Assembly: GCA_027485675.1 (NCBI GenBank)
Contig: JAIXQP010000044.1
Coordinates: 1-64,000 of the forward strand
Direction of reading: 5' to 3'
Source of the DNA: Terriglobales bacterium
GTDB lineage: Bacteria; Acidobacteriota; Terriglobia; Bryobacterales; Bryobacteraceae
DNA: 64,000 bases
Position numbers and translations under genes: made by a program. Positions 13,122 through 63,045 of this stretch are shown here, one piece after another (positions within the stretch are counted from its first letter, which is position 1; each line of letters opens with the position of its first letter). The notes under the pieces were generated by a model. That model saw only the letters and a program-made list of their open reading frames with translations, did not search any database and was not told the DNA's origin.

Positions 13122-13193
13122 GAGGTTGAAATTGTCTTATCGGACAGGGAGCGCGATTGTTTAACGGGCGCGGGGCGACATTGCCTTTAGCTT

Positions 13194-51110: not shown

Positions 51111-52562
51111 ATGCAGCCACTCAGCAAGCTTACCGACCGGACGTACGACGTCGTGGTGATTGGCGGAGGAATCATCGGGGCGGGCGTCGCCCGCGATGCG
51201 GCCCTGCGCGGATTGTCCGTGGCGTTGGTGGAGAAGAACGATTTTGGCAGCGGAACGACGGCCGGTTCGACCCGGCTGATCCACGGCGGCCTGCGCTATC
51301 TCGAAATGTATGATTTCGGTTTGGTGCGGATGGACCTGCGGGAGCGCGAGATTCTCTTGCGAATCGCACCGCATCTGGTGAAGCCGCTCGAGTTTCTCAT
51401 TCCCTTCTATGGCGCCTCGCTGTGGTTCCGTACGAAGATGCGGGTGGGGATGGCCTTGTATGACCTGCTGAGCTACGACAAGAGCCTGCCGAACCATCGG
51501 ATGCTCTCGGCGGCGGAAACCCTGGCCGAAGAGCCCTCGCTACGGGCGGAGGGCTTGCAGGGCGCGGCGGCGTACTACGACGCGCAGGTGTCGATGCCGG
51601 AACGGCTTTGCCTGGAGAACATCATCGACGCGGAGCGGCATGGCGGAGTGGTGCGCTCGTACACGGAAGTGACGGGAGCGGAGCAGGAGGGCGGCCGGAT
51701 CCGGGCCGTCCGCGTCCGTTGCAGCGAGAGCGGCGAGACGGGGGAGTTACGGGCAAAAGTATTCGTGAACGCCACGGGGGCGTGGTTTGACCGGGTAGCC
51801 CGGCAGACGGGCGATGCGCATCCTCCGCGGATCCGGACGACGAAGGGTATTCACATCACCTGCGAGCGGATGAACCTGAAGGCCAACGTGCTGTTTTCGC
51901 CCGTGGATGGGCGTTTGTTTTTCGTGATTCCGCTGTTGGGACAATGCTGGATTGGCACGACGGATACCGACTTTAGTGAGGATCCGGGAGCGGTCAGGGC
52001 CGACGGAGAGGATGTGGAGTATCTGTTGCGATCGGTGGAGCCGTTCTTTCCCAGGGTGCGGGAGTTGGCGATCTACTCCTCGAACGCCGGGGTACGGGCG
52101 CTCGTGAAGCAGGAGGGCTCCGCGTCTTCGGTTTCGCGCATGCATCAGATCGCCGAGACACAGCCCGGGATGATTTCGGTGCTGGGCGGCAAGATTACGG
52201 GTTACCGCGCCATTGCCGAGGAGGCGGTGGACGCGGTCAGCAAATACCTGCAGCACCGGCAGCCTTGCCGAACCCACCAGGAGTTGCTGCCGGGAGCTTT
52301 GGCGGAATCGCCGTCAGACCGGGCCGAATCCATCCGCTATGCCGTGGAAAAGGAACATTGTTGGCACGTAGCCGACTACCTGTTGCGGCGGCGTCCGGCG
52401 GCCTTCGCGGCGGATCAGGGGCGGGGAGAAGCCGAGGCGGTGGCGGAGACGATGGCGGAGTTGCTGGGTTGGGGTGCCGAGGAGCGGGAGCGGGAACTGG
52501 GGCGTTATCGGGGCGAAGCGGACCGGGCGCTGCTATACCGGGGGGAGCTAGTCCGTCGGTAG
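51111..52562 (+). CDS. glpD: FAD-dependent glycerol-3-phosphate dehydrogenase GlpD
   Basis: The 483-residue enzyme oxidises glycerol-3-phosphate at the membrane. The FAD-binding motif VVIGGGIIGAGVARDAALRG and the signature GTTAGSTRLIHGGLRYLE are intact. A C-terminal DAO_C-like domain is shorter than in E. coli GlpD. It lies 10 bases after rsmI. Function could also include related hydroxy acids, but the family match is strong. Confidence 0.9.
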   Translation: MQPLSKLTDRTYDVVVIGGGIIGAGVARDAALRGLSVALVEKNDFGSGTTAGSTRLIHGGLRYLEMYDFGLVRMDLREREILLRIAPHLVKPLEFLIPFYGASLWFRTKMRVGMALYDLLSYDKSLPNHRMLSAAETLAEEPSLRAEGLQGAAAYYDAQVSMPERLCLENIIDAERHGGVVRSYTEVTGAEQEGGRIRAVRVRCSESGETGELRAKVFVNATGAWFDRVARQTGDAHPPRIRTTKGIHITCERMNLKANVLFSPVDGRLFFVIPLLGQCWIGTTDTDFSEDPGAVRADGEDVEYLLRSVEPFFPRVRELAIYSSNAGVRALVKQEGSASSVSRMHQIAETQPGMISVLGGKITGYRAIAEEAVDAVSKYLQHRQPCRTHQELLPGALAESPSDRAESIRYAVEKEHCWHVADYLLRRRPAAFAADQGRGEAEAVAETMAELLGWGAEERERELGRYRGEADRALLYRGELVRR

Positions 52563-52599
52563 TGACCGGGATAATCTGAGGGCAAATTGTTCGCTTTTT

Positions 52600-52617
52600 C
52601 TTCACATTTTCGTGAAG
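52600..52617. promoter_or_regulatory. hairpin and possible promoter upstream of fliW
   Basis: CTTCAC (52600-52605) and GTGAAG (52612-52617) form a perfect 6-bp stem in the 146-base gap before fliW. Just downstream, TGAA and GACGATAG are 16 bases apart and slightly resemble a sigma28 promoter. A T run lies upstream, not downstream, so it is not a terminator for glpD. Confidence 0.3.
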
Positions 52618-52708
52618 TCTGCCGAGGGGGCCGACGATAGACAGGCAGGGCCAAGAAATCGGTCGGCTAGAATCCGATGCGATTGAGGATCGGGCCTTTT
52701 GAAAGACT

Positions 52709-53194
52709 ATGGCGACGATAGACACTCAGCAATTTGGAACGCTTCAGTACAGTGAGGATGCGATCTTCGAGTTTCCGGAGGGGATACCCGGATTCGAGCA
52801 GGCGCATCACTTTGTGTGCGTGGAGCGACCGGGTCTCCGGCCGATCACGTTTCTGCAGAGCGTGGATGATCCGGGGGTCTGCTTCATCACCTTGCCGGCG
52901 AAGGCGGTGGAGCCGGAGTACGAGCTGGATCTAGCGAGGGAGGACCTGCGGGTGCTAGGATTGGCGCAGATGGAGGAGAGTCTGGCCTGCCTGGCGATCG
53001 TCTGCATGCCGCAAGATGCGGCGCCGACGGCAAACCTGTTGGGTCCGGTAGTCCTCTCTCGGGAGACGATGCGCGGGATCCAAGCCATACGGGAAGATAG
53101 CAAGTATTCGGCGGTTCACCCGTTGAAGACGAACCGTACGGAGCCTGTACCCAGCGCGGCGGCCAAGTCGACTACAGGAGAGACGGAGTGCTGA
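52709..53194 (+). CDS. fliW: flagellar assembly factor FliW
   Basis: The 161-residue protein binds CsrA and flagellin to coordinate flagellin synthesis with export. The FliW core is clear: FPEGIPGFEQAHHFVCVE, FLQSVDDPGVCFI, and ANLLGPVVLS. The last 25 residues are a Ser/Thr/Glu-rich extension. Its stop overlaps the csrA GTG by 7 bases, so the two are co-translated. The flagellin gene begins 136 bases after csrA. Confidence 0.95.
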   Translation: MATIDTQQFGTLQYSEDAIFEFPEGIPGFEQAHHFVCVERPGLRPITFLQSVDDPGVCFITLPAKAVEPEYELDLAREDLRVLGLAQMEESLACLAIVCMPQDAAPTANLLGPVVLSRETMRGIQAIREDSKYSAVHPLKTNRTEPVPSAAAKSTTGETEC

Positions 53195-53508
53195 TAATCC
53201 GGCGCAGGCGGGGCGAGTCCATCACGGTTGGGGACGACGTCGAGATTGAGATCCTGGAGACCTCGCCGACGCAGGTCAAGCTGGGAATCCGGGCTCCGAA
53301 GAGTGTTTCTGTCCTGCGGAAAGAGATTATCGTAACCCGCGAGCAGAACCGTGTCGCCTCCGGTTCGCCGGCGGTAGACGAGAAGTTGAATACGTTGGCC
53401 GAGCAATATCGAGCCACGGAAGCTAGCGTGGAGTTGCCGGATCCAGCGACACCGATAGCCCTCGAAGTATCCCACCCACCCGTCATCGATCCGAAGCGCA
53501 CCTCCTAG
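53188..53508 (+). CDS. csrA: translational regulator CsrA with extended C-terminus
   Basis: The first 60 residues match CsrA: MLIIRRRRGESITVGDDVEI, VKLGIRAPKSVSVLRKEI. This is the beta-strand dimer that binds GGA in RNA hairpins. The protein is 106 residues long, about 40 more than the usual 60-75, with a tail rich in Glu, Ala and Pro. It starts at a GTG with AGGAG 8 bases upstream, inside the end of fliW. In this setting it should repress flagellin translation until FliW is free to bind it. Confidence 0.9.
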   Translation: MLIIRRRRGESITVGDDVEIEILETSPTQVKLGIRAPKSVSVLRKEIIVTREQNRVASGSPAVDEKLNTLAEQYRATEASVELPDPATPIALEVSHPPVIDPKRTS

Positions 53509-53580
53509 CGCGCTTTCGTCCCCCCCACTCAGCAACGAATGAAAGGCAGCCCGCCGCGGCTAAGGGCGGACTGCGTTCCC

Positions 53581-53643
53581 GGGAATGGATTCCCGCATCC
53601 CCCATCCTCTGGCTCCCGCCAGAGCTGTTTCAAGGAGTGAAAC
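53581..53643 (+). promoter_or_regulatory. flagellin 1 leader with three hairpins, CsrA-site candidate
   Basis: GGGAA-TGGA-TTCCC (53581-53594), CTCTGGC-TCCC-GCCAGAG (53607-53624) and GTTTC-AAGGAGT-GAAAC (53627-53643) form three consecutive hairpins. The first and third show GGA in the loop, and the third contains the Shine-Dalgarno AGGAG and ends at the ATG. This is the layout of CsrA-repressed flagellin leaders. Confidence 0.7.
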
Positions 53644-56028
53644 ATGTCCTTTCGCATCAACACGAACATTGCATCGCTGCAGTCGCGCGAGTACTTGCGG
53701 ACGACTACCGAACAGCAGGCTAAAGCCATTGGCCGGGTCACATCGGGCTTACGAATTCTCTCGAGCGGCGACGACGCCGCTGGCCTGTCGATCGCCAACA
53801 GCTTCCGCAGCGACCAGGCCGTTCTGCAACAAGGTATCCGCAACGCCAACGATGGCCTAAGTACCTTGCAGACGATCGATGGTGGCATCAACAACATCAG
53901 CAAGTTATTGGACCGCGCGCGCACCCTCGCCACGCAGTCTGCCTCTGGCACCTTTACGGGGAGCCGCGAGGTGCTGAACACCGAGTTTTCGAGCGTCATC
54001 GCGGAGATTGACCGCCAGGCGCAGTCGATTGGCCTGAACACGGGCGGTGAGTTTGCCCGCGCCCTTTCGGTCTTTGTCGGTGGCGGCAAGAGTTCCAACG
54101 GAATCAATGCCATCCAGAATGGCGCTTCGAATGTGGATCTATCAAACTCGACGGTGGACGCCAAGAGTCTCGGGCTGAAGGGTTCGCAGGCGCAGGGTGT
54201 GCCAACGGTGGATATCGGCACCGGCTCGCCGTCGACGAGTGTGTCGGCCATTATCAACGACCCGACGAATCTCGCCTCGCTCGAAGCGGCGGGGTTCACT
54301 GATTTTTATTTCCGGGGTCCTGGGTTCGGCGACGCCGACAGGGTGAAAGTGTCCGTCAACCTTTCGGGCGTCACGAATATCGATAACCTGGTGGGGGCCA
54401 TCAATGCCGCCATCGAGAGCGCCGGACAGGTGGTGAGTCCGGCGGCAACTGCGTTCCAGAATGCCAACGTGCGCGCTTCCGTGATTACCGCCGCGGATGG
54501 AAAACGCTCGCTGGCCTTCACCTCAGCAAACTCGGCGTTTCAGGTTTCGGCGGGAGACCAGACGGCGAATGCACTGTTGGGCAATGTGACTTCAACGACC
54601 AACCCGACAGGGGCATCGCTAGCCAACACCGTGACGGGTGGTTCGACGACCGCCGCGGCGGCCACCACCTTCGGCGCTTCGGGCGCCGGCACGGTCACTG
54701 TCCGCTTTCAGGGCGCGGGACTTTCGGCGCCAGTCGACATCGACCTGACCGTTGCGGCCGGCACAACCATCGATCAGGCACTTAACACCCTTTCGACGGC
54801 GGTCGCCGCCAACGCGTCTTTACAGGCAGCTGGTATCGCAACGGCAACTACCACGCCAGGCTCCGCATTGGTATTCAGCAATTCGCGCGGTGAACGGTTT
54901 GAGGTGCTCAGTTCTGGTGACCTCAACAACCGGCTGGGCTTGGGCAGCTTCCGCGCCTCGGGCGGTGCGAGCGGTTCGTTTGACTACGCCGCGATAACCG
55001 GTTCTGGCGGCACTTTCGCGGCCGCCGCGCAGACGCTCGAATTTTCCTTGGGAGGTGGTTCGACGATCTCGCTGGCGATCACCCCGACAGCGGCGAACAT
55101 CGCGGGGGCCACGCAGGCACTCAACGCGGCGTTTGCCGGAAACACGTCGCTGGCAGCGGCGGGCCTGGTAGCCACCAATGACGGCACGAACATCACGATC
55201 ACAAGCAGCAGCGATACCCGCTTCCGGATTGCAACAGTGGGCGCCGCCAACGTCTTCGGTTTCAACTCTGCCGTCGCAACAGGCGTGGCTGATTTGGCTG
55301 AGACGCAAGCGGGCAACACCACCATCAATCAGTTCGTCTCTGGCGGTACCCAGCAGACATCCTTGATCTCCTTCTCGGGGATTCGCAGCGGCGGCGACGA
55401 CCAGACGATCACCATCACGGCAGCCGAGAACGGAAACGCCGAGCAGTCCCTGGCGGTGGTTCTCCGCAACGATGCGATTCGCAACGCCGGCACCGTGGAT
55501 GAGGCCATCAATGCAATCAACACCGCGTTGTACCAGTCGAACAATCCGACGCTGCAAAAGGTATTCGCGGTGAAGGCGAAGGCGTCAGCGGGCGGGCCGG
55601 AGGGAATCCAGTTCGTCAGTACGCTCAACTCGTTCAAGGTGACGGTCGGCACCAACGGAGGAGGGACGGGCCTGGGCTCGCAAGGCACCGTGGTCTCGTC
55701 GGCGACGACAGGCACCGGGGCGACCGCCGACATCAGCACACAGGAAAGCGCACAGGCGGCCGTTTCGGCCTTGGCGGATGCCGTAACGTCGCTCGGACAA
55801 GCGCAAGCCGTGGTTGGCCGCGGCCAGAATCAGTTCACCTTCGCCGTGAATCTGGCGGCGAGCCAACTCACCAATCTGGCAGCTGCCGAGTCCCGCATCC
55901 GCGACGCCGACCTTGCCGAAGAGGCCGCGAACCTGACGAAGGCGCAGATTCTGCTGCAGGCCGGCGTATCCGCGCTGGCGCAGGCGAACTCGGCACCCGA
56001 GCAGGTGCTATCGCTGCTCCGGTCGTAA
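53644..56028 (+). CDS. flagellin 1 (large)
   Basis: This 794-residue flagellin keeps the conserved D0/D1 ends: MSFRINTNIASLQSREYLR and SSGDDAAGLSIANSFRSDQ at the N-terminus, and RIRDADLAEEAANLTKAQIL with QANSAPEQVLSLLRS at the C-terminus. Between them lie about 500 residues of beta-repeat modules (flagellin-IN type), for example GAGTVTVRFQGAGLSAPVD. It is about twice the length of a minimal flagellin. It is first of three tandem flagellins behind fliW-csrA. Regulation by the leader hairpins is inferred. Confidence 0.95.
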   Translation: MSFRINTNIASLQSREYLRTTTEQQAKAIGRVTSGLRILSSGDDAAGLSIANSFRSDQAVLQQGIRNANDGLSTLQTIDGGINNISKLLDRARTLATQSASGTFTGSREVLNTEFSSVIAEIDRQAQSIGLNTGGEFARALSVFVGGGKSSNGINAIQNGASNVDLSNSTVDAKSLGLKGSQAQGVPTVDIGTGSPSTSVSAIINDPTNLASLEAAGFTDFYFRGPGFGDADRVKVSVNLSGVTNIDNLVGAINAAIESAGQVVSPAATAFQNANVRASVITAADGKRSLAFTSANSAFQVSAGDQTANALLGNVTSTTNPTGASLANTVTGGSTTAAAATTFGASGAGTVTVRFQGAGLSAPVDIDLTVAAGTTIDQALNTLSTAVAANASLQAAGIATATTTPGSALVFSNSRGERFEVLSSGDLNNRLGLGSFRASGGASGSFDYAAITGSGGTFAAAAQTLEFSLGGGSTISLAITPTAANIAGATQALNAAFAGNTSLAAAGLVATNDGTNITITSSSDTRFRIATVGAANVFGFNSAVATGVADLAETQAGNTTINQFVSGGTQQTSLISFSGIRSGGDDQTITITAAENGNAEQSLAVVLRNDAIRNAGTVDEAINAINTALYQSNNPTLQKVFAVKAKASAGGPEGIQFVSTLNSFKVTVGTNGGGTGLGSQGTVVSSATTGTGATADISTQESAQAAVSALADAVTSLGQAQAVVGRGQNQFTFAVNLAASQLTNLAAAESRIRDADLAEEAANLTKAQILLQAGVSALAQANSAPEQVLSLLRS

Positions 56029-56079
56029 CGGCGAGAGTAGGCGCGGGGCCGCGCGATGGACGGGGCGCGGCCCTCGCCG
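56029..56079 (+). promoter_or_regulatory. long hairpin between flagellins 1 and 2
   Basis: The outer arms CGGCGAG (56029-56035) and CTCGCCG (56073-56079) and the inner arms GGCCGCGC (56047-56054) and GCGCGGCC (56065-56072) enclose the loop GATGGACGGG, which again exposes GGA. No T tract follows, so it is not a clear terminator. It may attenuate read-through or stabilise the mRNA end. Confidence 0.55.
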
Positions 56080-56136
56080 TTGGGCGCATTTACCGGCTGG
56101 ACCGGAGCCCCGGTATGCCGTTTCAGAGAGAGGATC

Positions 56137-58533
56137 ATGTCATTTCGCGTCAATACCAACGTCGCGTCTTTGCGGTCACGCGAGTATTTGCGCCAGACGT
56201 CAGAGTCTCAGGGCAAGGCTGTCGGTCGCGTCACTTCCGGCCTCCGCATTGTCGCCAGCGGCGATGATGCGGCCGGATTGTCGATTGCCAATGCGTTGCG
56301 GAGCGATCAGGCCATTCTGGCGCAAGGGGTGCGGAACGCCAACGATGGGTTGAGTACCCTGCAGACGCTCGACGGCGGAATCAACAACATCAGTAAACTG
56401 CTCGACCGGGCGCGAACTCTGGCAACGCAGTCCGCCTCCGGCACATTCACCGGAGACCGGAGCGTGTTGAACGCCGAGTTCACCTCCGTGATCGCAGAAG
56501 TTGACCGTCAGGCCCAAGCGGTGGGACTGGCAACGGGCGGCGACTTTGCCCGGTCCCTTTCTGTTTTCGTTGGGGGCGGGCGCAGCGCGAACGGAGTTTC
56601 GACGACGGCCAACGGCTCGGTGGAGGTGGATCTATCCACGTCAACGGTAGACGCGAAGAGCCTGGGCCTGAAGGGCGTGCAGGCGCAGGGCGTCAGCACG
56701 GTGGACATCGGGACAGGCTCGGCGGGTACCAACGTGCAAGCCATCGTTAAGAACGCGACCAACCTGGCCTCGACAACGGTTAGCGGCTTTACGAACTTCT
56801 ACTTCCAAGGCCCGGGATTTAGCGACAGCGAGCGGATCAAAGTGGCGGTTAGCCTCTCCGGGATCACGAACGTCGACAATCTCGTGGAGAACATCAACAC
56901 CGCCATCGATACGGCGGGGAAAGCTTCGTCCCCAGAAGCCACCGCGTTTCAGAACGCGGGCATCCGAGCGATGGTGGTGACGAACGCTAGCGGCCAGAAG
57001 TCGATCGGTTTCACTTCGGCCACGGCAGCGTTTCAAGTTGCGGCGGGAGACCGCCTTTCGAACGCTCTGCTGGGCAACGTCACCTCCAGTTCCAACCCGG
57101 CGGGCCGGACATTGGGAAACCTGGTGCTGACGAGCGCGAATGCCGCACCGAGCGGGACCACCTTCGGAGCCACCGGGGCCGGTACCGTGACGTTTCGCTT
57201 CCAAGGAGGCAATCTCACCAATCCGGTCGATGTCGCCATCGCGGTAACCGCGACAACGACCATCGACCAAGCGATGGTCGCATTGAGTTCGGCCGTCGGC
57301 AGCAACGCGTCTCTCCAGGCTGCGGGGATTTCCGCACTGACGGCGGCTCCAGGCAGTCCGATGATCTTCGGGAGCGCCCAGGGCGAGAAGTTCGAAGTCC
57401 TGACGTCCGGGGACGTCAACGACCTCTTTAACCTCGGCTCCTATCAGGGGTCGGCAGGCGCCGGTGGCACCTTCGACTACTCTTCGATTACGGGAGCGGC
57501 GGGCACTTTCGCCGCCGCTGCGGAGACCTTGGAGTTTTCGATCGGGGGCGGGCCTAAAGTGTCGCTCCCGGTGACCCCGGTCGCAGCGACGATTGCCGGT
57601 GCGACGACGGCGCTGAACGCGGCCTTTGCCAGCAATGCGCAGACGTCCGCGGCGGGATTGCTGGCAACCAACGACGGCACAGCAATCACGATTACGAGCA
57701 CCAACGGATCGAAGTTCCGCTTGAACTCGGTGGGCTCCACAAATATTCTGGGCTTCAACGATCGGGGGGGAGCACAAGCGACGGGATACGCCGACACGGC
57801 CGAGACGCAAACCGCCGGTACTACGATTCATTACTTCGCTTCGGCGGGCGCTCAGCAGACGGGATTGTTGAGTTTTTCGCCCATTCGCATCGGCAATGAC
57901 GACCAAACCATCACCATCACGGCGATGGACCCGGCGGGGACCCAACAGTCGCTGGCCGTTATCCTCCGCAACGATAGCGTAGTGCAGAATGCGGCCACCG
58001 TTGATGAAGCGATTCACGCCATCAACGCGGCGCTCCAGCAATCCAACAACGCGACCTTGCGGCAAATCGTAGCCGTGAAAAACCGGGCCACGGCGACTGG
58101 GCCGGAGGGCATCAATTTCCTGAGTAACTTAGCCTCTTTTCAAGTCGGGATCGGCACCAACGGCGGGGGTACGGGGATTGGCAGCCAAGGTACGGTGGTC
58201 GCGGCCACGACGGTGGGAACCGGGGCAACGGCATCGATTAGCAGCCAAGATGCGGCGGAGAACGCCGTTGTCGCGCTGGGGGAAGCGATTGCGAAACTGG
58301 GCACGGCTCAGGCGGTCGTGGGCCGCGGTCAAAATCAATTCACCTATGCGGTGAACCTGGCGCAGTCGCAGTTGACGAATCTGGCGGCATCGGAATCCCG
58401 GATCCGCGATGCGGATTTCGCCGAGGAGGCCGCCAGCCTGACCAAGACGCAGATTTTGCTGCAGGCCGGCATTTCGGCGCTTTCGCAGGCGAACTCGGCC
58501 CCGGAACAGGTCCTGTCGCTGTTACGGAGTTAA
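56137..58533 (+). CDS. flagellin 2 (large)
   Basis: The 798-residue flagellin begins MSFRVNTNVASLRSREYLRQ and ends QANSAPEQVLSLLRS, with conserved D0/D1 ends. The central region of beta-repeats has the same modules as flagellin 1, but this part is the most divergent of the three (for example SGDVNDLFNLGSYQ where the others have SGDLNNRLGLGSFR). The start at 56137 follows an AGAGAGAGG. Its leader lacks the GGA hairpin seen before flagellins 1 and 3, and no own promoter was found, so it may be expressed by read-through. Confidence 0.95.
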   Translation: MSFRVNTNVASLRSREYLRQTSESQGKAVGRVTSGLRIVASGDDAAGLSIANALRSDQAILAQGVRNANDGLSTLQTLDGGINNISKLLDRARTLATQSASGTFTGDRSVLNAEFTSVIAEVDRQAQAVGLATGGDFARSLSVFVGGGRSANGVSTTANGSVEVDLSTSTVDAKSLGLKGVQAQGVSTVDIGTGSAGTNVQAIVKNATNLASTTVSGFTNFYFQGPGFSDSERIKVAVSLSGITNVDNLVENINTAIDTAGKASSPEATAFQNAGIRAMVVTNASGQKSIGFTSATAAFQVAAGDRLSNALLGNVTSSSNPAGRTLGNLVLTSANAAPSGTTFGATGAGTVTFRFQGGNLTNPVDVAIAVTATTTIDQAMVALSSAVGSNASLQAAGISALTAAPGSPMIFGSAQGEKFEVLTSGDVNDLFNLGSYQGSAGAGGTFDYSSITGAAGTFAAAAETLEFSIGGGPKVSLPVTPVAATIAGATTALNAAFASNAQTSAAGLLATNDGTAITITSTNGSKFRLNSVGSTNILGFNDRGGAQATGYADTAETQTAGTTIHYFASAGAQQTGLLSFSPIRIGNDDQTITITAMDPAGTQQSLAVILRNDSVVQNAATVDEAIHAINAALQQSNNATLRQIVAVKNRATATGPEGINFLSNLASFQVGIGTNGGGTGIGSQGTVVAATTVGTGATASISSQDAAENAVVALGEAIAKLGTAQAVVGRGQNQFTYAVNLAQSQLTNLAASESRIRDADFAEEAASLTKTQILLQAGISALSQANSAPEQVLSLLRS

Positions 58534-58602
58534 GCCACCGTTCTGCGGCGGGGGTATGGGCCGTATCCCAGAACCTTCTTACCCTACTCCTTCATATTTT
58601 TC

Positions 58603-58628
58603 TAAATCTCTCCGGAACGCTCCGATAA
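58603..58628 (+). promoter_or_regulatory. sigma28 (FliA) promoter candidate for flagellin 3
   Basis: TAAA (58603-58606) is followed after 14 bases by TCCGATAA (58621-58628). The sigma28 consensus is TAAA-N15-GCCGATAA, so 7 of 8 bases of the -10 match and spacing is one short. It lies 68 bases upstream of the flagellin 3 start. Confidence 0.6.
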
Positions 58629-58639
58629 GCCTTTTGTAA

Positions 58640-58695
58640 CCGGTGTATTCACCGGGCGGGAAGGACTCCCGGATCATCGTTTCAAGGAGAGAAAC
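58640..58695 (+). promoter_or_regulatory. flagellin 3 leader with GGA-loop hairpins
   Basis: CCGGTG-TATT-CACCGG (58640-58655), CGGGA-AGGAC-TCCCG (58657-58671) and GTTTC-AAGGAGA-GAAAC (58679-58695) mirror the leader of flagellin 1: GGA in two loops and the Shine-Dalgarno in the last. The ATG follows directly. Confidence 0.7.
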
Positions 58696-61083
58696 ATGTC
58701 ATTTCGTGTAAATACTAACGTCGCGTCTTTGCAGTCGCGGGAATATCTGCGTCAGACTTCAGAGTCGCAAGGAAAGACCATCAACCGCGTGACCTCCGGG
58801 TTGCGCATCATCGCCAGCGGCGACGACGCTGCCGGCTTGGCGATCGCAAACGGGTTCCGCAGCGATCAGGCGGTTCTGTCGCAAGGTGTGCGGAACGCCA
58901 ACGACGGCTTGAGCACGCTGCAGACGTTGGACGGCGGTATCAACAACATCAGCAAGCTGCTGGACCGGGCCCGGACGCTGGCGACCCAGTCGGCATCGGG
59001 CACGTTTACGGGTGACCGCGGCGTGTTGAACACCGAGTTTTCCTCGGTGATCGGTGAAATCGATCGGCAAGCCCAAGCGGTGGGTTTGACGACGGGTGGC
59101 GCGTTTGCCAAGTCGCTTTCGGTCTTTATCGGCGGTGGCCGGAGTGCGAACGGCATCACGACGACGACTAACGGGTCGGTCGGTGTGGATTTGTCCACTT
59201 CGACTGTGGACTCGAAGAGTCTGGGACTGAAGGGTGTGCAGGCGCAGGGCGTCAGCACGATCGATATCGGCACCGGGTCGGCTTCGACGAGCGTTTCGGC
59301 GATCGTGAATGATGCGACCAACACGGGTTCGACGGCGGTGGGTGGATTCACGGACTTCTACTTCAAGGGTCCGGGCTTCAGCGACAACGAGTCGATCAAG
59401 GTGGCGGTGAATCTTTCGGGCGTGACCAACGTCGACAACTTGGTGACGAACATCAACGCGGCCATTGAGTCGGCTGGGAATGCTTCGTCGCAACAGGCGA
59501 CGGCCTTCAAGAACGCCGGGATTCAGGCGACCGTGGTAACGGACTCGACGGGCAAGAAATCGATTGGCTTCACGTCGGCTTCTGCGGCGTTTCAGGTGGC
59601 GGCGGGCGACCGGCTTTCGAATGCGTTGCTGGGCAACGTGACCTCGACGTCGAACCCGGCCGGTCTTGCGCTGGCGAATACGGTGACGGGCGGTTCCGCG
59701 ACGGCGGCGACGACCACGACGTTCGGAGCCTCTGGCGCCGGAACGGTGACGGTTCGTTTTCAGGGCGCCAATCTGACCAGCCCGGTCGATCTCGCTTTGA
59801 CGGTGGCCTCGGGTACGACGATTGATGCGGCGCTGGCGTCGTTGAGTTCGGCGGTGGGCAGCAATGCCACGTTGCAGGCCGCTGGGATCACGGTGCAAAC
59901 GGCAACGGCGGGCTCGGCGTTGGTGTTTGGGAACTCTCGTGGCGAGAAGTTTGAGGTTTTGTCCTCGGGCGACTTGAACAACCGTCTCGGCCTCGGATCG
60001 TTCCGGAGCTCGACTGGCGCGAGTGGCACCTTCGACTACTCGGCGGTTACGGGCGTAGCTGGCACGTTCCTGGCGGCGGCGGAGACGCTGGAAATCTCCG
60101 TTGGTGGCGGTACCGCGCAATCGATTTCGGTAACTCCGACTGCGGCCACGATTGCCGGAGCCACTACGGCTCTGAATGCGGCGTTTGCAGCCAACTCGAC
60201 GTTGGCGGGGGCCGGGTTGGTGGCGACGAACAACGGTACTGTGATCACGATCACCAGCAGCACCGGGTCCAACTTCCGGCTCAACTCCGTGGGCGCGACC
60301 AACGTCCTCGGGTTCAATGGCGCAACAGCGACCGGTGTGGCGGATACGGCCGAAACCCAGAGTGCTGGCACGGACATCAACTTTTTCGCAGCCGCCGGCT
60401 CTCAGCAGACCAGTCTGCTGAGCTTCTCGGCGATTCGGAACGGTGATGACGACCAAACGATCACGCTGACGGCTAACGACACCGCCGGTGTCGAGCAGTC
60501 CTTGGCGGTAGTTCTGCGCAACGACAGCACGATTCGCAACGCCGGCACCGTCGATGAAGCGATTAATGCGATCAACACGGCCCTGCAACAGTCCAACAAC
60601 ACCACGCTGAATCAGATCGTGGCGGTGAAGGACAAAGCGAATGCGGGCGGCGCCGAGGGTATCAAGTTCGTCAGCAACCTGGCCTCGTTCAAGGTCGGTG
60701 TCGGCACCAACGGCAGCGGCACCGGCATCGGCAGCCAGGGTACGGTGGTCACGGCGGCAACGGTCGGGACCGGCGCCACGGCCGCCATCGATAGTCAGGA
60801 CTCGGCGGAAAAGGCGGTCACGGCGCTCGGCGAAGCCATCGCCAAGCTCGGCACCGCGCAAGCCGTCGTCGGTCGTGGTCAGAATCAGTTCACCTACGCG
60901 GTGAACCTGGCGCAATCGCAGCTGACCAACCTGGCCGCTTCTGAATCCCGGATCCGCGACGCGGACTTGGCCGAAGAAGCTGCCAACCTGACCAAAGCGC
61001 AGATCCTTCTGCAGGCCGGTATCTCTGCTCTCTCGCAGGCGAACTCGGCTCCGCAGCAGGTGTTGTCACTCCTCCGGGGCTAG
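58696..61083 (+). CDS. flagellin 3 (large)
   Basis: The 795-residue flagellin starts MSFRVNTNVASLQSREYLRQ and ends QANSAPQQVLSLLRG. The ends are closest to flagellin 2 (TSESQGK, QSQLTNLAASESRIRDADL), while the middle modules are closer to flagellin 1 (NTVTGGSxTAAxTTFGASGAG, SGDLNNRLGLGSFR). It has its own sigma28 promoter candidate and a strong terminator. It may be the major filament subunit; that is inference. Confidence 0.95.
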   Translation: MSFRVNTNVASLQSREYLRQTSESQGKTINRVTSGLRIIASGDDAAGLAIANGFRSDQAVLSQGVRNANDGLSTLQTLDGGINNISKLLDRARTLATQSASGTFTGDRGVLNTEFSSVIGEIDRQAQAVGLTTGGAFAKSLSVFIGGGRSANGITTTTNGSVGVDLSTSTVDSKSLGLKGVQAQGVSTIDIGTGSASTSVSAIVNDATNTGSTAVGGFTDFYFKGPGFSDNESIKVAVNLSGVTNVDNLVTNINAAIESAGNASSQQATAFKNAGIQATVVTDSTGKKSIGFTSASAAFQVAAGDRLSNALLGNVTSTSNPAGLALANTVTGGSATAATTTTFGASGAGTVTVRFQGANLTSPVDLALTVASGTTIDAALASLSSAVGSNATLQAAGITVQTATAGSALVFGNSRGEKFEVLSSGDLNNRLGLGSFRSSTGASGTFDYSAVTGVAGTFLAAAETLEISVGGGTAQSISVTPTAATIAGATTALNAAFAANSTLAGAGLVATNNGTVITITSSTGSNFRLNSVGATNVLGFNGATATGVADTAETQSAGTDINFFAAAGSQQTSLLSFSAIRNGDDDQTITLTANDTAGVEQSLAVVLRNDSTIRNAGTVDEAINAINTALQQSNNTTLNQIVAVKDKANAGGAEGIKFVSNLASFKVGVGTNGSGTGIGSQGTVVTAATVGTGATAAIDSQDSAEKAVTALGEAIAKLGTAQAVVGRGQNQFTYAVNLAQSQLTNLAASESRIRDADLAEEAANLTKAQILLQAGISALSQANSAPQQVLSLLRG

Positions 61084-61112
61084 TTAGCCTTCGGTAACCT
61101 TACTCCAAACTC

Positions 61113-61146
61113 GGCCCGGATTGTCAGAACAATCCGGGCCTTTTTT
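61113..61146 (+). terminator. strong intrinsic terminator after flagellin 3
   Basis: GGCCCGGATTGT (61113-61124) and ACAATCCGGGCC (61129-61140) form a perfect 12-bp stem with a CAGA loop, followed by six T (61141-61146). It closes the flagellin transcript. Confidence 0.93.
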
Positions 61147-61197
61147 CGTCTTTTCCTCCCTCCCCGTTCCGCTCCATCCCGCCGATGGTGAGGGTAG

Positions 61198-63045
61198 ATG
61201 ACCGTTGCGGCTCGCCTTATTGAAAATGCACAACAACTTCACCAGATCGGCCGATGGCAGGAGGCGGAACGCCTCTACTTGCAGGCCTTGGAACAGTCTC
61301 CCGGCGAGTCGAGCGGGTTGCACTTACTGGGCTTGCTCCACGCAGAAACCGGCCGGGAAGACACCGCAGCGCAACTTTTAAGCGCCGCGATTGGCATTGA
61401 GGGGCCTTCGCCCCATCTGTGCCGCAATCTGGGAATCATCCTGGAGCGGCAGGGCAAGGCCGAGGCGGCCCTAGCCTGTTACCGCCAAGCGCTCATGAGT
61501 GAACCGGAAAACCCTGAAATTTGGGCCCCTCTGGCGGCGCTTCTTTCGGGACAGGGACGCTTCGGCGAAGCGGCCCAAGCCTGGCGCCGCGCGGTGGAAA
61601 CCAGCCCCGATCCGGTCGAGAGCCAGCTCCCGTGGCGATTATCGTGGGCCAAGGCGCTTGCCCTGGCGGGAGACCGGGAGTCCGCCCGGGAGTTGCTCGA
61701 GCGGATCCTGCGCGTGGACACGACACATACCGCGGCCCGCTACGATCTTGGGGTGATCCTCATGCAGTTGGATCGCGCGGCGGAGGCAATCGCCCAATTC
61801 GAGCAGGTAGTCGCCGCCGAGCCCGACCATTGCGATGCACACAACAACCTCGGGGTGCTTCTCCACAGTCTTGGACATACTGATCGGGCGCGCCAGCACT
61901 ACTCCGCTTGTCTAGCGGCCCGGCCGGATGCCATCAACGCCCGGTACAACCTGGGGACGTTGCTGCAGGAGGAAGGCGAGATCGAACTGGCAGTAGCCGA
62001 ACTTCGCCACGTTCTCGACCTTGACGCCTGCCACGCCGGCGCCTGGACGAATCTCAGCAATTGCTGGCTCAGTCTCGGTGATCCGAAGGCAGCGATGGAA
62101 TGCGCCGGGAAAGCGCTTGTCCTGGCGCCGGGTCAGCCGTCGGCCCGCTGGAATGCCGGGTTGGCGCGGCTCACGGCAGGAGATCTGCGGGGAGGCTGGA
62201 CCGGCTACGAAGCCCGGTTCGAACTGCCGGGCGGCGCCCGGCGCCGCACCTTCCCCATGCCTCTGTGGACGGGGGAACCCCTGGTGGGCCGGTCGATCCT
62301 GGTCTACGCCGAACAGGGATTGGGCGACAGCCTGCACTTCTGCAGGTACCTGGCAGAACTGGCCGGGCGGGGGGCGCGCGTGATCTTCGAATGCCCCCAA
62401 AAGCTGGTTTCGATTCTCGAAACGTTGGATCCGAAGCCAGAACTGGTGGTGGCGCCCGCGAATCCCGCGCCCGCCGCCGACTACCATGTCCCACTGCTCA
62501 GCCTGCCGGGGCTGTTCGAGACAACCTTGCCGTCGATTCCCGGGACTTCCCCGTACCTCCTGGCCACTCCCGACGCCCAGGCTCGCTGGCGGAAGCGCCT
62601 GGCGCCGCTGCGGCCGCGCCGGCTGGTTGGGTTCGTTTCGCAAGGGAACCCCAAGTACAAGAACGATCGCAATCGGAGTATCCCTTTCCCGGCGTGGGCT
62701 CCGCTCCATTCCCAGCCCGGCACGGCGCTGGTGCACCTCCAATTCGGGGTCGCGGCCCCGCCGGAACTGGTGGACCTGGACTTGGGCGCCGAGGTGGGAG
62801 ACTTCGCGGACACGGCTGGACTGGTGGACGAGTTGGATCTGGTTCTTACAGTCGACACCTCGATGGTCCACTTGGCAGGCGCTCTCGGCAAGACAACCTG
62901 GTTACTGCTGCCTTACGCCGCCGATTGGCGGTGGCTCCGGGACAGAAGCGACTCGCCCTGGTACCCGTCGGTTCGGATCTTTCGCCAATCCCGGCCGGGG
63001 GATTGGTCATCCGTGATGGGCGAGGTGGTAGCTGCATTGGCCTGA
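61198..63045 (+). CDS. TPR-repeat glycosyltransferase, probably flagellin-modifying
   Basis: The first 340 residues of this 615-residue protein are tetratricopeptide repeats (e.g. AARYDLGVILMQLDRAAEAI, AHNNLGVLLHSLGHTDRAR). The C-terminal third is a glycosyltransferase of the GT-B kind related to family 9 and SPINDLY-type proteins (ILVYAEQGLGDSLHFCRYLA, VLTVDTSMVHLAGALGKTTW, DSPWYP). Such proteins often sit beside flagellin genes and add sugars to them. The ATG at 61198 follows GAGGG. It starts just after the flagellin terminator, so it has its own promoter, not identified here. Confidence 0.85.
   Translation: MTVAARLIENAQQLHQIGRWQEAERLYLQALEQSPGESSGLHLLGLLHAETGREDTAAQLLSAAIGIEGPSPHLCRNLGIILERQGKAEAALACYRQALMSEPENPEIWAPLAALLSGQGRFGEAAQAWRRAVETSPDPVESQLPWRLSWAKALALAGDRESARELLERILRVDTTHTAARYDLGVILMQLDRAAEAIAQFEQVVAAEPDHCDAHNNLGVLLHSLGHTDRARQHYSACLAARPDAINARYNLGTLLQEEGEIELAVAELRHVLDLDACHAGAWTNLSNCWLSLGDPKAAMECAGKALVLAPGQPSARWNAGLARLTAGDLRGGWTGYEARFELPGGARRRTFPMPLWTGEPLVGRSILVYAEQGLGDSLHFCRYLAELAGRGARVIFECPQKLVSILETLDPKPELVVAPANPAPAADYHVPLLSLPGLFETTLPSIPGTSPYLLATPDAQARWRKRLAPLRPRRLVGFVSQGNPKYKNDRNRSIPFPAWAPLHSQPGTALVHLQFGVAAPPELVDLDLGAEVGDFADTAGLVDELDLVLTVDTSMVHLAGALGKTTWLLLPYAADWRWLRDRSDSPWYPSVRIFRQSRPGDWSSVMGEVVAALA

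Follow-up and report, generated by a model that had tools for sequence, protein, structure and literature searches.

Organization of the fliW-csrA-flagellin locus

We analyzed a 64,000-nucleotide stretch (the window) of contig JAIXQP010000044.1 from a Terriglobales bacterium of the family Bryobacteraceae, in which genes for FliW, CsrA and three flagellins follow one another on the forward strand, and examined the leaders of the flagellin genes for putative CsrA sites. The source assembly (6,591,471 bases, 6.59 Mb; 97.4% complete) belongs to a soil-type acidobacterium, and the closest matches of the window flagellins were in Acidobacteriota metagenome-assembled genomes (MAGs) labelled Acidobacteria, Bryobacteraceae or Candidatus Sulfopaludibacter. 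The gene order is fliW, csrA, flagellin 1 (fl1), flagellin 2 (fl2), flagellin 3 (fl3) and a terminator-like hairpin. With start codons set by homology, fliW (52709..53194) encodes 161 amino acids (aa) (Pfam FliW, 9.5e-28) and csrA (53188..53508) encodes 106 aa (Pfam CsrA, 1.6e-18) from a GTG start that overlaps the fliW stop. The best solved relatives of the two products are chains of one entry, 5dmb (5dmb_A, FliW; 5dmb_D, CsrA), and family searches of the assembly returned one match for each gene. The CsrA alignment retained R6, R7 and R44 and had I instead of L at position 4, residues that we take to be RNA contacts. The csrA gene ends 135 bp before fl1 (53644..56028, 794 aa), which is followed by fl2 (56137..58533, 798 aa) and fl3 (58696..61083, 795 aa); all three products contain the Pfam domains Flagellin_N and Flagellin_C. 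Flagellin_N also had a fourth and weaker match, on another contig, which we read as FlgL-like.

The fl1 and fl3 leaders contain two GGA-loop hairpins

The initial annotation had placed a hairpin, GTTTC-AAGGAG(T/A)-GAAAC, immediately before the ATG of fl1 and fl3, with GGA and the Shine-Dalgarno (SD) sequence in its loop, and a second GGA-loop hairpin further upstream in both leaders. Both features were confirmed. The SD hairpin of fl1, (T)GTTTC-AAGGAGT-GAAAC(A), occupies 53626..53644 on the + strand with its core at 53627-53643, and that of fl3, GTTTC-AAGGAGA-GAAAC, is at 58679..58695; each abuts the ATG directly. The 20-mer GTTTC-AAGGAGW-GAAAC-ATG occurred exactly twice in the assembly, at fl1 and fl3, and a reversed-pattern control gave no match like it there. 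The upstream hairpins are CGGGAA-TGGA-TTCCCG at 53580..53595 (-64..-49 of fl1) and CGGGA-AGGAC-TCCCG at 58657..58671 (-39..-25 of fl3), both on the + strand. When the fl3 RNA was folded from its predicted sigma-28 start, both GGA hairpins formed together with a third hairpin that lacks GGA. Rfam at gathering scores had no match within 52500-61300.

We then compared these leaders within clade A, which consists of the window genome (G000), G149, G004, G113, G202, G161, G169, G177 and G206. The exact GTTTC SD hairpin preceded 9 of 9 fl1, 9 of 9 fl3 and 3 of 3 flagellin 4 (fl4) genes and none of the 6 fl2 genes, window included. The upstream stem of fl1 was present in all 8 other genomes, lying further up in G161 (-86..-71) and having the loop CGGA in G177, G169 and G206. 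A covariance model (R1) built from ten fl3/fl4 leaders scored 67.4 bits at fl3 in the window's own assembly. Across 19 genomes of the genus, R1 gave at least 31 matches under E 0.01, located at flagellin starts; 10 of the 31 were the model's own training leaders, and with at most 150 first-look candidates scored per genome the scan may have missed sites.

To place the leaders in a wider setting, FliW was searched in 200 genomes from the larger family and 80 stretches were taken, omitting some near contig ends, some that were already in the set and the list's last; some of the loci belong to other Terriglobia outside the family. We compared 153 flagellin leaders (L064-L237; cleared of identical 50-mers only, SD not required) with 275 control leaders (L064-L131 and the window; SD required), in both cases omitting L122, L123, L125, L128, L131 and L132-L137. 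Both hairpins, each of at least 5 bp, were found in 27 of the 153 flagellin leaders and in 1 of the 275 others. An upstream GGA-loop stem of at least 6 bp preceded 58/153 and 8/275, respectively, and under laxer rules an SD hairpin of at least 5 bp was present in 51/153 and 38/275; borderline leaders were sensitive to the hairpin threshold. Among non-flagellin AGGAG sites, 9 of 120 lay in a loop closed by at least 5 bp, one of the nine being an internal site of a flagellin gene. The leaders share ancestry and are thus not independent trials, which makes changes within the stems the better evidence.

Such changes were found in both hairpins. The upstream stem varied around GGA (CCGGGAA/TTCCCGG, CGGCTGGA/TCCAGCCG, CCGGGT/ACCCGG, AGCTGGGC/GCCCAGTT and CCAGGGAA/TTCCCTGG), with both-side changes in 3 of its 5 predicted pairs. 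The SD stem was invariant within clade A, and its compensatory changes came only from the wider group; AAGGAG is enclosed by AUUC/GAAU, CUUC/GAAG and AAUAC/GUAUU in sequences from outside the genus. In an alignment of 34 sequences and 5 pairs, 92 of 170 cells of the SD stem were paired, compared with 74 in re-dealt columns, and none of 2000 re-dealings reached as high a value. This covariation is support rather than proof, since related sequences can exceed re-dealt columns without structure, and the counts of compensatory changes are inflated for the same reason of relatedness. Automatic consensus folding of 35 leaders recovered the upstream hairpin and not the SD hairpin. The case rests on two paralogs with two hairpins each, plus their conservation, and not on single folds.

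Stem-loops at a start site can work without a protein, and the hairpins might tune only SD accessibility or mRNA stability with CsrA uninvolved. We consider this very improbable, because the loop letters are conserved while the stems vary and because csrA and fliW adjoin the flagellins. We ranked all 64 trinucleotides as loops of stems of at least 6 bp in 88 of 106 leaders, those more than 85% alike having been removed (the ranking omitted L122, L123, L125, L128, L131, L132-L137 and the re-fetched loci L146-L157). GGA, the known CsrA core, came first and was found in the loops of 28 of the 88 leaders, as compared to 1.4 expected from dinucleotide shuffles; the runners-up, AGG (26) and AAG (24), both overlap GGA.

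Two groups of loci differed from this pattern. L122, L123, L125, L128 and L131, which are of Pyrinomonadaceae type (three are so named), have a different near-start GGA hairpin, GTTC-ACGGAG-GAAC, and by their sequence suggest that the arrangement extends past the family. Both flagellin leaders of L106 (10001 and 13315) have, by eye, the upstream stem context around the loop region GGGAAAGA, from which GGA seems to have been lost.

The fl2 leader has lost the SD hairpin

The initial annotation had also noted that the corresponding stretch of fl2 (56120..56136, + strand) retains neither the stem nor AAGGAG, and this held: the sequence reads GTTTCAGAGAGAGGATC. No GGA-loop stem of at least 4 bp encloses the fl2 SD within 56120-56136, and the isolated stretch folded with only -1.8 kcal/mol. 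The SD itself is still present. Its pairing with the 16S end (-8.2 kcal/mol) is similar to that of fl3 (-8.5 kcal/mol), which rules out the idea that the window copy of fl2 has no SD; three bases separate the end of the SD from the ATG in fl2 and six in fl3. The counterpart of the upstream hairpin (56092..56114, + strand) is a rearranged GC-rich stretch in which only 4-bp GGA-loop stems are possible, and its predicted fold pairs part of each GGA.

The other fl2 copies showed different degrees of loss. The stretch is GTTTCAGAGAGAGGAAC in G149 and GTTTCAAAGAGAGGAAC in G004, where a 5-bp stem with one G-U pair is possible around a loop without GGA. The loop GGA is thus missing from fl2 of the window, G149 and G004, and the stem from the window only, so that most simply the loop changed first and the stem was lost later, in the window copy only. 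G149 retains an upstream hairpin, CGGGA-AGGAA-TCCCG; the upstream GGA stem is 4 bp with an 8-base loop in G004, 4 bp and further up in G113, and absent from G202. The fl2 starts of G113 and G202 had no SD pairing (+0.7 kcal/mol). Two further stretches, 7264-7350 of L069 and 7225-7311 of L072, belong to fl2 orthologs with intact 798-codon frames and no SD before the ATG (ACCACCATG). The R1 scores of fl2 were 50.4 bits in G149, 35.7 in G004 and 19.0 in the window, and no match under E 1 was found at fl2 of G113 and G202 among the candidates scored. Since the loop GGA over the fl2 SD is lost, direct CsrA repression of fl2 should be weak or absent, and judged by its leader sequence fl2 should bind CsrA less well than fl1 and fl3.

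Predicted transcription of the flagellin genes

A sigma-28-type promoter (TAAA-N15-CCGATAA; 58603..58628, + strand) lies before fl3 and matched the consensus at 11 of 11 positions. The best sigma-28 sites before fl1 and fl2 matched at 8/11 and 6/11, values that were equalled by 4 and 56 of 60 shuffles, respectively. A sigma-54 promoter for fl2, considered by analogy with flaB of Campylobacter jejuni, was rejected; no sigma-54-like site occurred between fl1 and fl2, and the window as a whole had 30 matches compared with 59 in shuffles. A consensus scan placed the terminator-like hairpin after fl3 at 61113..61140 (+ strand) and found no terminator on the coding strand from 52500 to 61113, csrA-fl3 included; overall the scan gave 7 sites against 8.4 in shuffles, i.e. 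no excess. fl2 sits 108 bp behind fl1. Since neither an fl2 promoter nor a csrA-fl3 terminator was found, fl2 is most likely read through from fl1 and perhaps from fliW-csrA. With this short distance and no predicted terminator, CsrA acting on fl1 could reach fl2 via mRNA stability or polarity.

Several other elements were seen in the window. The spacer of the fl3 promoter contains CTCTCC (58607-58612), which is complementary to GGAGAG at the fl3 SD (58686-58691), and RNA containing this spacer has a very stable predicted fold (z -4.42) that would mask the SD. Within clade A, CTCTCC occurs in 6 of the 9 fl3 promoters (G113, G161 and G202 lack it) and in none of the 3 fl4 promoters; it could silence fl3 on read-through RNA and not on RNA from its own promoter. 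A block 5' of fliW (~52590-52660) holds the dyad CTTCAC-N6-GTGAAG and GACGATAGAC, appears strongly conserved by eye across the eight clade-A genomes compared, and is a candidate promoter or operator of fliW-csrA. Just past the fl3 terminator, an open reading frame (ORF) at 61198-63045 encodes a large TPR protein, possibly a candidate flagellin-modifying enzyme. On the minus strand, a second sigma-28-type promoter (TAAA-N16-CCGATAA, 13137-13163) precedes a 603-aa ORF (13121-11310) that follows a cheA-like ORF (15122-13194; named by eye) and probably belongs to the motility regulon.

History and selection of fl2

We built a tree of 77 flagellins of at least 450 aa, taken from loci with two or more flagellins plus chosen single ones; the broken fl2 of G149 and the remnant in G161 accordingly fell outside it. 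The fl2 copies of the window, G004, G113 and G202 grouped in a starred clade (95/88) that lies within the fl3 lineage (97/97), with a long branch (0.54) for G113/G202. This nesting suggests that, most simply, the sites were lost after duplication and that fl2 descends from a gene with a sigma-28 promoter and both hairpins. When the window was compared with G004, dN/dS was 0.091 (fl2), 0.063 (fl3) and 0.030 (fl1), with protein identities of 85.7%, 92.5% and 95.0%, respectively. Across the comparisons made, dN/dS of fl2 was 1.6-3.6 times that of fl1 and 1.05-2.9 times that of fl3, which is still purifying; these ratios are approximate because several synonymous distances are near saturation. The full frame and the dN/dS of 0.091 rule out that the window fl2 is a pseudogene.

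Is fl2 then a decaying duplicate whose hairpin loss is neutral erosion without regulatory meaning? Of the eight clade-A genomes with a readable fl1-fl3 stretch (not G206), four had an intact fl2 (G000, G004, G113 and G202), one had a copy with a broken frame (G149), one had a remnant (G161) and two had no fl2 (G169 and G177); the G149 and G161 copies were assigned to fl2 by place and similarity. Most relatives are MAGs, in which frame breaks are possibly assembly errors. Together with the missing SD in G113 and G202 and the falling series of R1 scores, this distribution speaks for decay. However, the frames of 797-798 codons in four genomes and a dN/dS of 0.06-0.16 between fl2 copies, which indicates purifying selection, speak against it, and we regard pure decay as unlikely. 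The sequences suggest that fl2 is under purifying selection and yet eroding in clade A.

The initial annotation had proposed that FliW-CsrA controls two flagellins and leaves one free, allowing filament composition to change with assembly state. The first part stood insofar as the fl1 and fl3 leaders are of the right type, lie beside the only fliW and csrA found in the assembly, and contrast with an fl2 leader that no longer has an SD hairpin or a strong upstream one. The idea that fl2 is free and ready fared less well, since it has no recognisable promoter, an SD only 3 bases from the ATG, and short GGA stems. Were fl2 well translated and exempt from CsrA, an active CsrA would make filaments rich in fl2, and the release of fl1 and fl3 by FliW would make them rich in these two instead. 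The loss of the SD hairpin from a gene that half of the eight clade-A genomes maintain at full length and under constraint fits such a switch, as do the other lineages described below, in which constraint on the flagellin that lacks a strong hairpin is similar to that on its partner. However, besides the lack of a recognisable promoter and the SD so close to the ATG, the fl2 of G113 and G202 lacks SD pairing, the gene is broken (2) or absent (2) in four of the eight genomes, and transcription dependent on fl1 would tie fl2 to CsrA indirectly. The composition switch is therefore weakened, and for the window fl2, as stated, we consider it distinctly unlikely; the hairpin asymmetry behind the proposal persists. 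The features of the window fl2 suggest a minor copy that is eroding and depends on read-through.

Asymmetric flagellin pairs recur in other lineages

Nine two-flagellin loci (L079, L080, L081, L083, L087, L088, L089, L092 and L190) were asymmetric, with a GGA hairpin of at least 6 bp on the first flagellin and none of 6 bp on the second; two of the second flagellins (L079 and L092) had a 5-bp GGA hairpin within -130..0. The flagellin without the strong hairpin was intact in all nine. Six of the loci could be assigned to three genera of the same family: g69 (L079, L080, L081), g54 (L083, L088) and g31 (L190). Sigma-28 sites matching at 9 or 10 of 11 positions preceded 5 of the 8 second flagellins scored (L190 was outside the eight), and L083, L088 and L092 had 7 or 8. 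As 8 of the 9 second flagellins formed one starred clade in the 77-flagellin tree, the asymmetry perhaps arose in one event. When presence or absence of a 5-bp stem was used as the label, at least 9 changes were needed on 77 rows; this label depends on the threshold (the second flagellin of L092 counts as having a stem via a weak SD stem) and gain and loss are indistinguishable in it.

In clade B, another clade of the genus (G135, G197, G185, G201, G205, G203 and G192), the asymmetry had the opposite orientation. The first flagellin lacked the GTTTC stem in 7/7 genomes and kept AGGAG in 7/7, and the second flagellin had the stem in 7/7; G204 showed one flagellin, with the stem. Clade B represents a weakening rather than a clean loss, since 4-bp GGA-loop stems at the SD persist in 5 of the 7 first flagellins and the G192 frame ends after 148 aa. 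For five pairs, dN/dS of the copy without the strong hairpin was 0.067-0.172 and that of its partner 0.108-0.194; for three clade-B pairs the values were 0.033-0.106 and 0.074-0.097. In these lineages the two copies of a pair are under similar constraint. Symmetric loci exist as well. At 5 bp, L104 had hairpins on both flagellins, L102, L106, L169 and L186 on neither, and L185 and L198 had SD stems on both; in clade A, G169 and G177 had both hairpins on both flagellins. The asymmetry is thus recurrent and not a rule, and the idea of an exempt flagellin fits other family members better than the window.

A further possibility is that the Bryobacteraceae-type copy without strong CsrA hairpins, set apart more than once and constrained in two other lineages to much the same degree as its partner, is a pilot flagellin made regardless of CsrA. 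With export closed, the pilot would bind FliW and CsrA would stay free to repress the hairpin-bearing flagellins; with export open, it would leave first, form the hook-proximal filament and release FliW to start the others. We rate this reading overall as quite improbable. For the window fl2 it is weakened because the gene is eroding, an objection confined to the window, and it is more tenable for the stable second flagellins of other genera. If true, the pilot would be the FliW-CsrA counterpart of FljJ, the regulatory flagellin of Caulobacter.

Discussion

We consider it probable that the fl1 and fl3 leaders are switches repressed by CsrA and relieved by FliW, and that fl2 is a duplicate that has lost its sites and persists as a minor, read-through flagellin. 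The hairpins, conservation, covariation, loss, promoter motifs, phylogeny and selection were computed, and from them we infer CsrA binding, FliW relief, read-through and expression level. The fl1 and fl3 leaders would act as translational switches of the type of Bacillus hag or Campylobacter flaA. By bridging the two hairpins of a leader, the upstream GGA hairpin and the one around the SD, a CsrA dimer would block ribosomes as long as cytoplasmic flagellin accumulates and occupies FliW; once flagellin is exported, the freed FliW would bind CsrA and the leaders would open. fl2 would have arisen by duplication of an fl3-type gene followed by loss of the sigma-28 promoter and of the GGA in the loop around the SD. 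The copy in this genome probably yields a minor flagellin, produced from fl1 read-through with an SD close to the start codon. The fl2 protein retains both flagellin domains, N- and C-terminal, so that its binding to FliW may persist.

Several observations weigh against this interpretation. When folded in isolation, the fl1 and fl3 SD stems proved weak (-5.5 and -3.4 kcal/mol; z -1.29 and -1.06), and we set these z-scores of about -1 aside as uninformative. The two-hairpin fold of fl3 depends on the predicted sigma-28 start, and with promoter DNA included the leader folds differently and very stably (z -4.42). An SD hairpin of at least 5 bp is not general in the wider group. The R1 score of fl1 was modest (33.1 bits over the assembly, 25.0 in a local 6.5-kb search), owing to the different spacing of its hairpins. 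Over the assembly fl2 scored no better (19.0 bits) than an unrelated site (19.1); the local search ranked it third with 19.0 bits (E 7e-5), so that some trace of the leader persists. Near the SD, the fl2 leader retains a GGA, and further up it can form two 4-bp stems, CCGG-CTGGA-CCGG at 56093-56105 and GGCT-GGACCGG-AGCC at 56095-56109. These residual stems and the upstream hairpin of the G149 copy mean that some CsrA binding to fl2 may persist. At 56045-56074, in the fl1-fl2 gap, a further GC stem of 10 bp closes a 10-base loop that contains AUGGA. This stem might be a hidden CsrA site of fl2, but it was not seen in the fl1-fl2 gaps of G149 and G004, and we set the possibility aside without excluding it.

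Control of flagellin by FliW and CsrA is an already known kind of system. In Bacillus subtilis Hag is the sole flagellin and, unlike here, there is no paralog to escape CsrA. The available part of one account of B. subtilis describes adjacent fliW and csrA genes, as in the window, CsrA occluding the SD of hag mRNA, flagellin export freeing FliW to inhibit CsrA, and CsrA binding also limiting hag transcript accumulation (PMC6529632). The closest precedent is C. jejuni. In the sections available, the flaA leader has two ANGGA stem-loops, the second over the ribosome-binding site, and binds CsrA at ~50 nM; the stems of flagellin leaders show compensatory changes among species, and FliW antagonises CsrA (PMC4894983). 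The sister gene flaB required >350 nM CsrA and was not substantially changed by csrA deletion; it has a sigma-54 promoter and was affected when fliW was deleted, so that its exemption, according to these sections, is relative (PMC4894983). The flaA/flaB pair thus resembles fl1+fl3 and fl2 in combining a two-hairpin leader with a weaker-sited sister, a likeness by sequence only on our side. From what these sections describe, flaB differs in having its own sigma-54 promoter, whereas fl2 lies behind fl1 and no promoter was found for it; also unlike C. jejuni, three similar flagellins here (two to four elsewhere) stand directly behind fliW-csrA. FliW binding was mapped to the N-terminal part of C. 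jejuni flagellin in the portion available of another study (PMC5466977).

Two other systems offer partial parallels. Treponema denticola, in the passage available to us, has fliW-csrA in a flagellar cluster and CsrA sites near the SD of flaB1 and flaB2, two of three core flagellins; it differs in that these sites are predicted only, flaB3 is unmentioned in that passage, and the flagella are periplasmic (PMC9481697). Caulobacter crescentus FljJ is, in the excerpt available, one of several paralogs, made first, located nearest the hook and described as controlling the translation of the others (PMC7591256). This control involves FlbT instead of CsrA-FliW (PMC7591256), and the likeness drawn here is one of role. 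A literature search, with subscription journals largely outside its scope, gave among the papers listed none on flagellin leaders with CsrA sites in Acidobacteriota or on paralogs exempted repeatedly, an absence that is unproven.

Our analysis would extend FliW-CsrA control of flagellin to putative leaders in the Acidobacteriota, with comparative support. The flagellin genes described here form a natural series, from leaders with both hairpins through those with one or with remnants to genes with no SD, which offers a way to test what each CsrA site contributes and how several flagellins are used. Since less-controlled paralogs recur, what began as a remark on a single genome becomes a testable question: why should one flagellin stay outside the brake? 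In the organism itself, the asymmetry between fl1/fl3 and fl2 may let the cell treat its flagellins differently.

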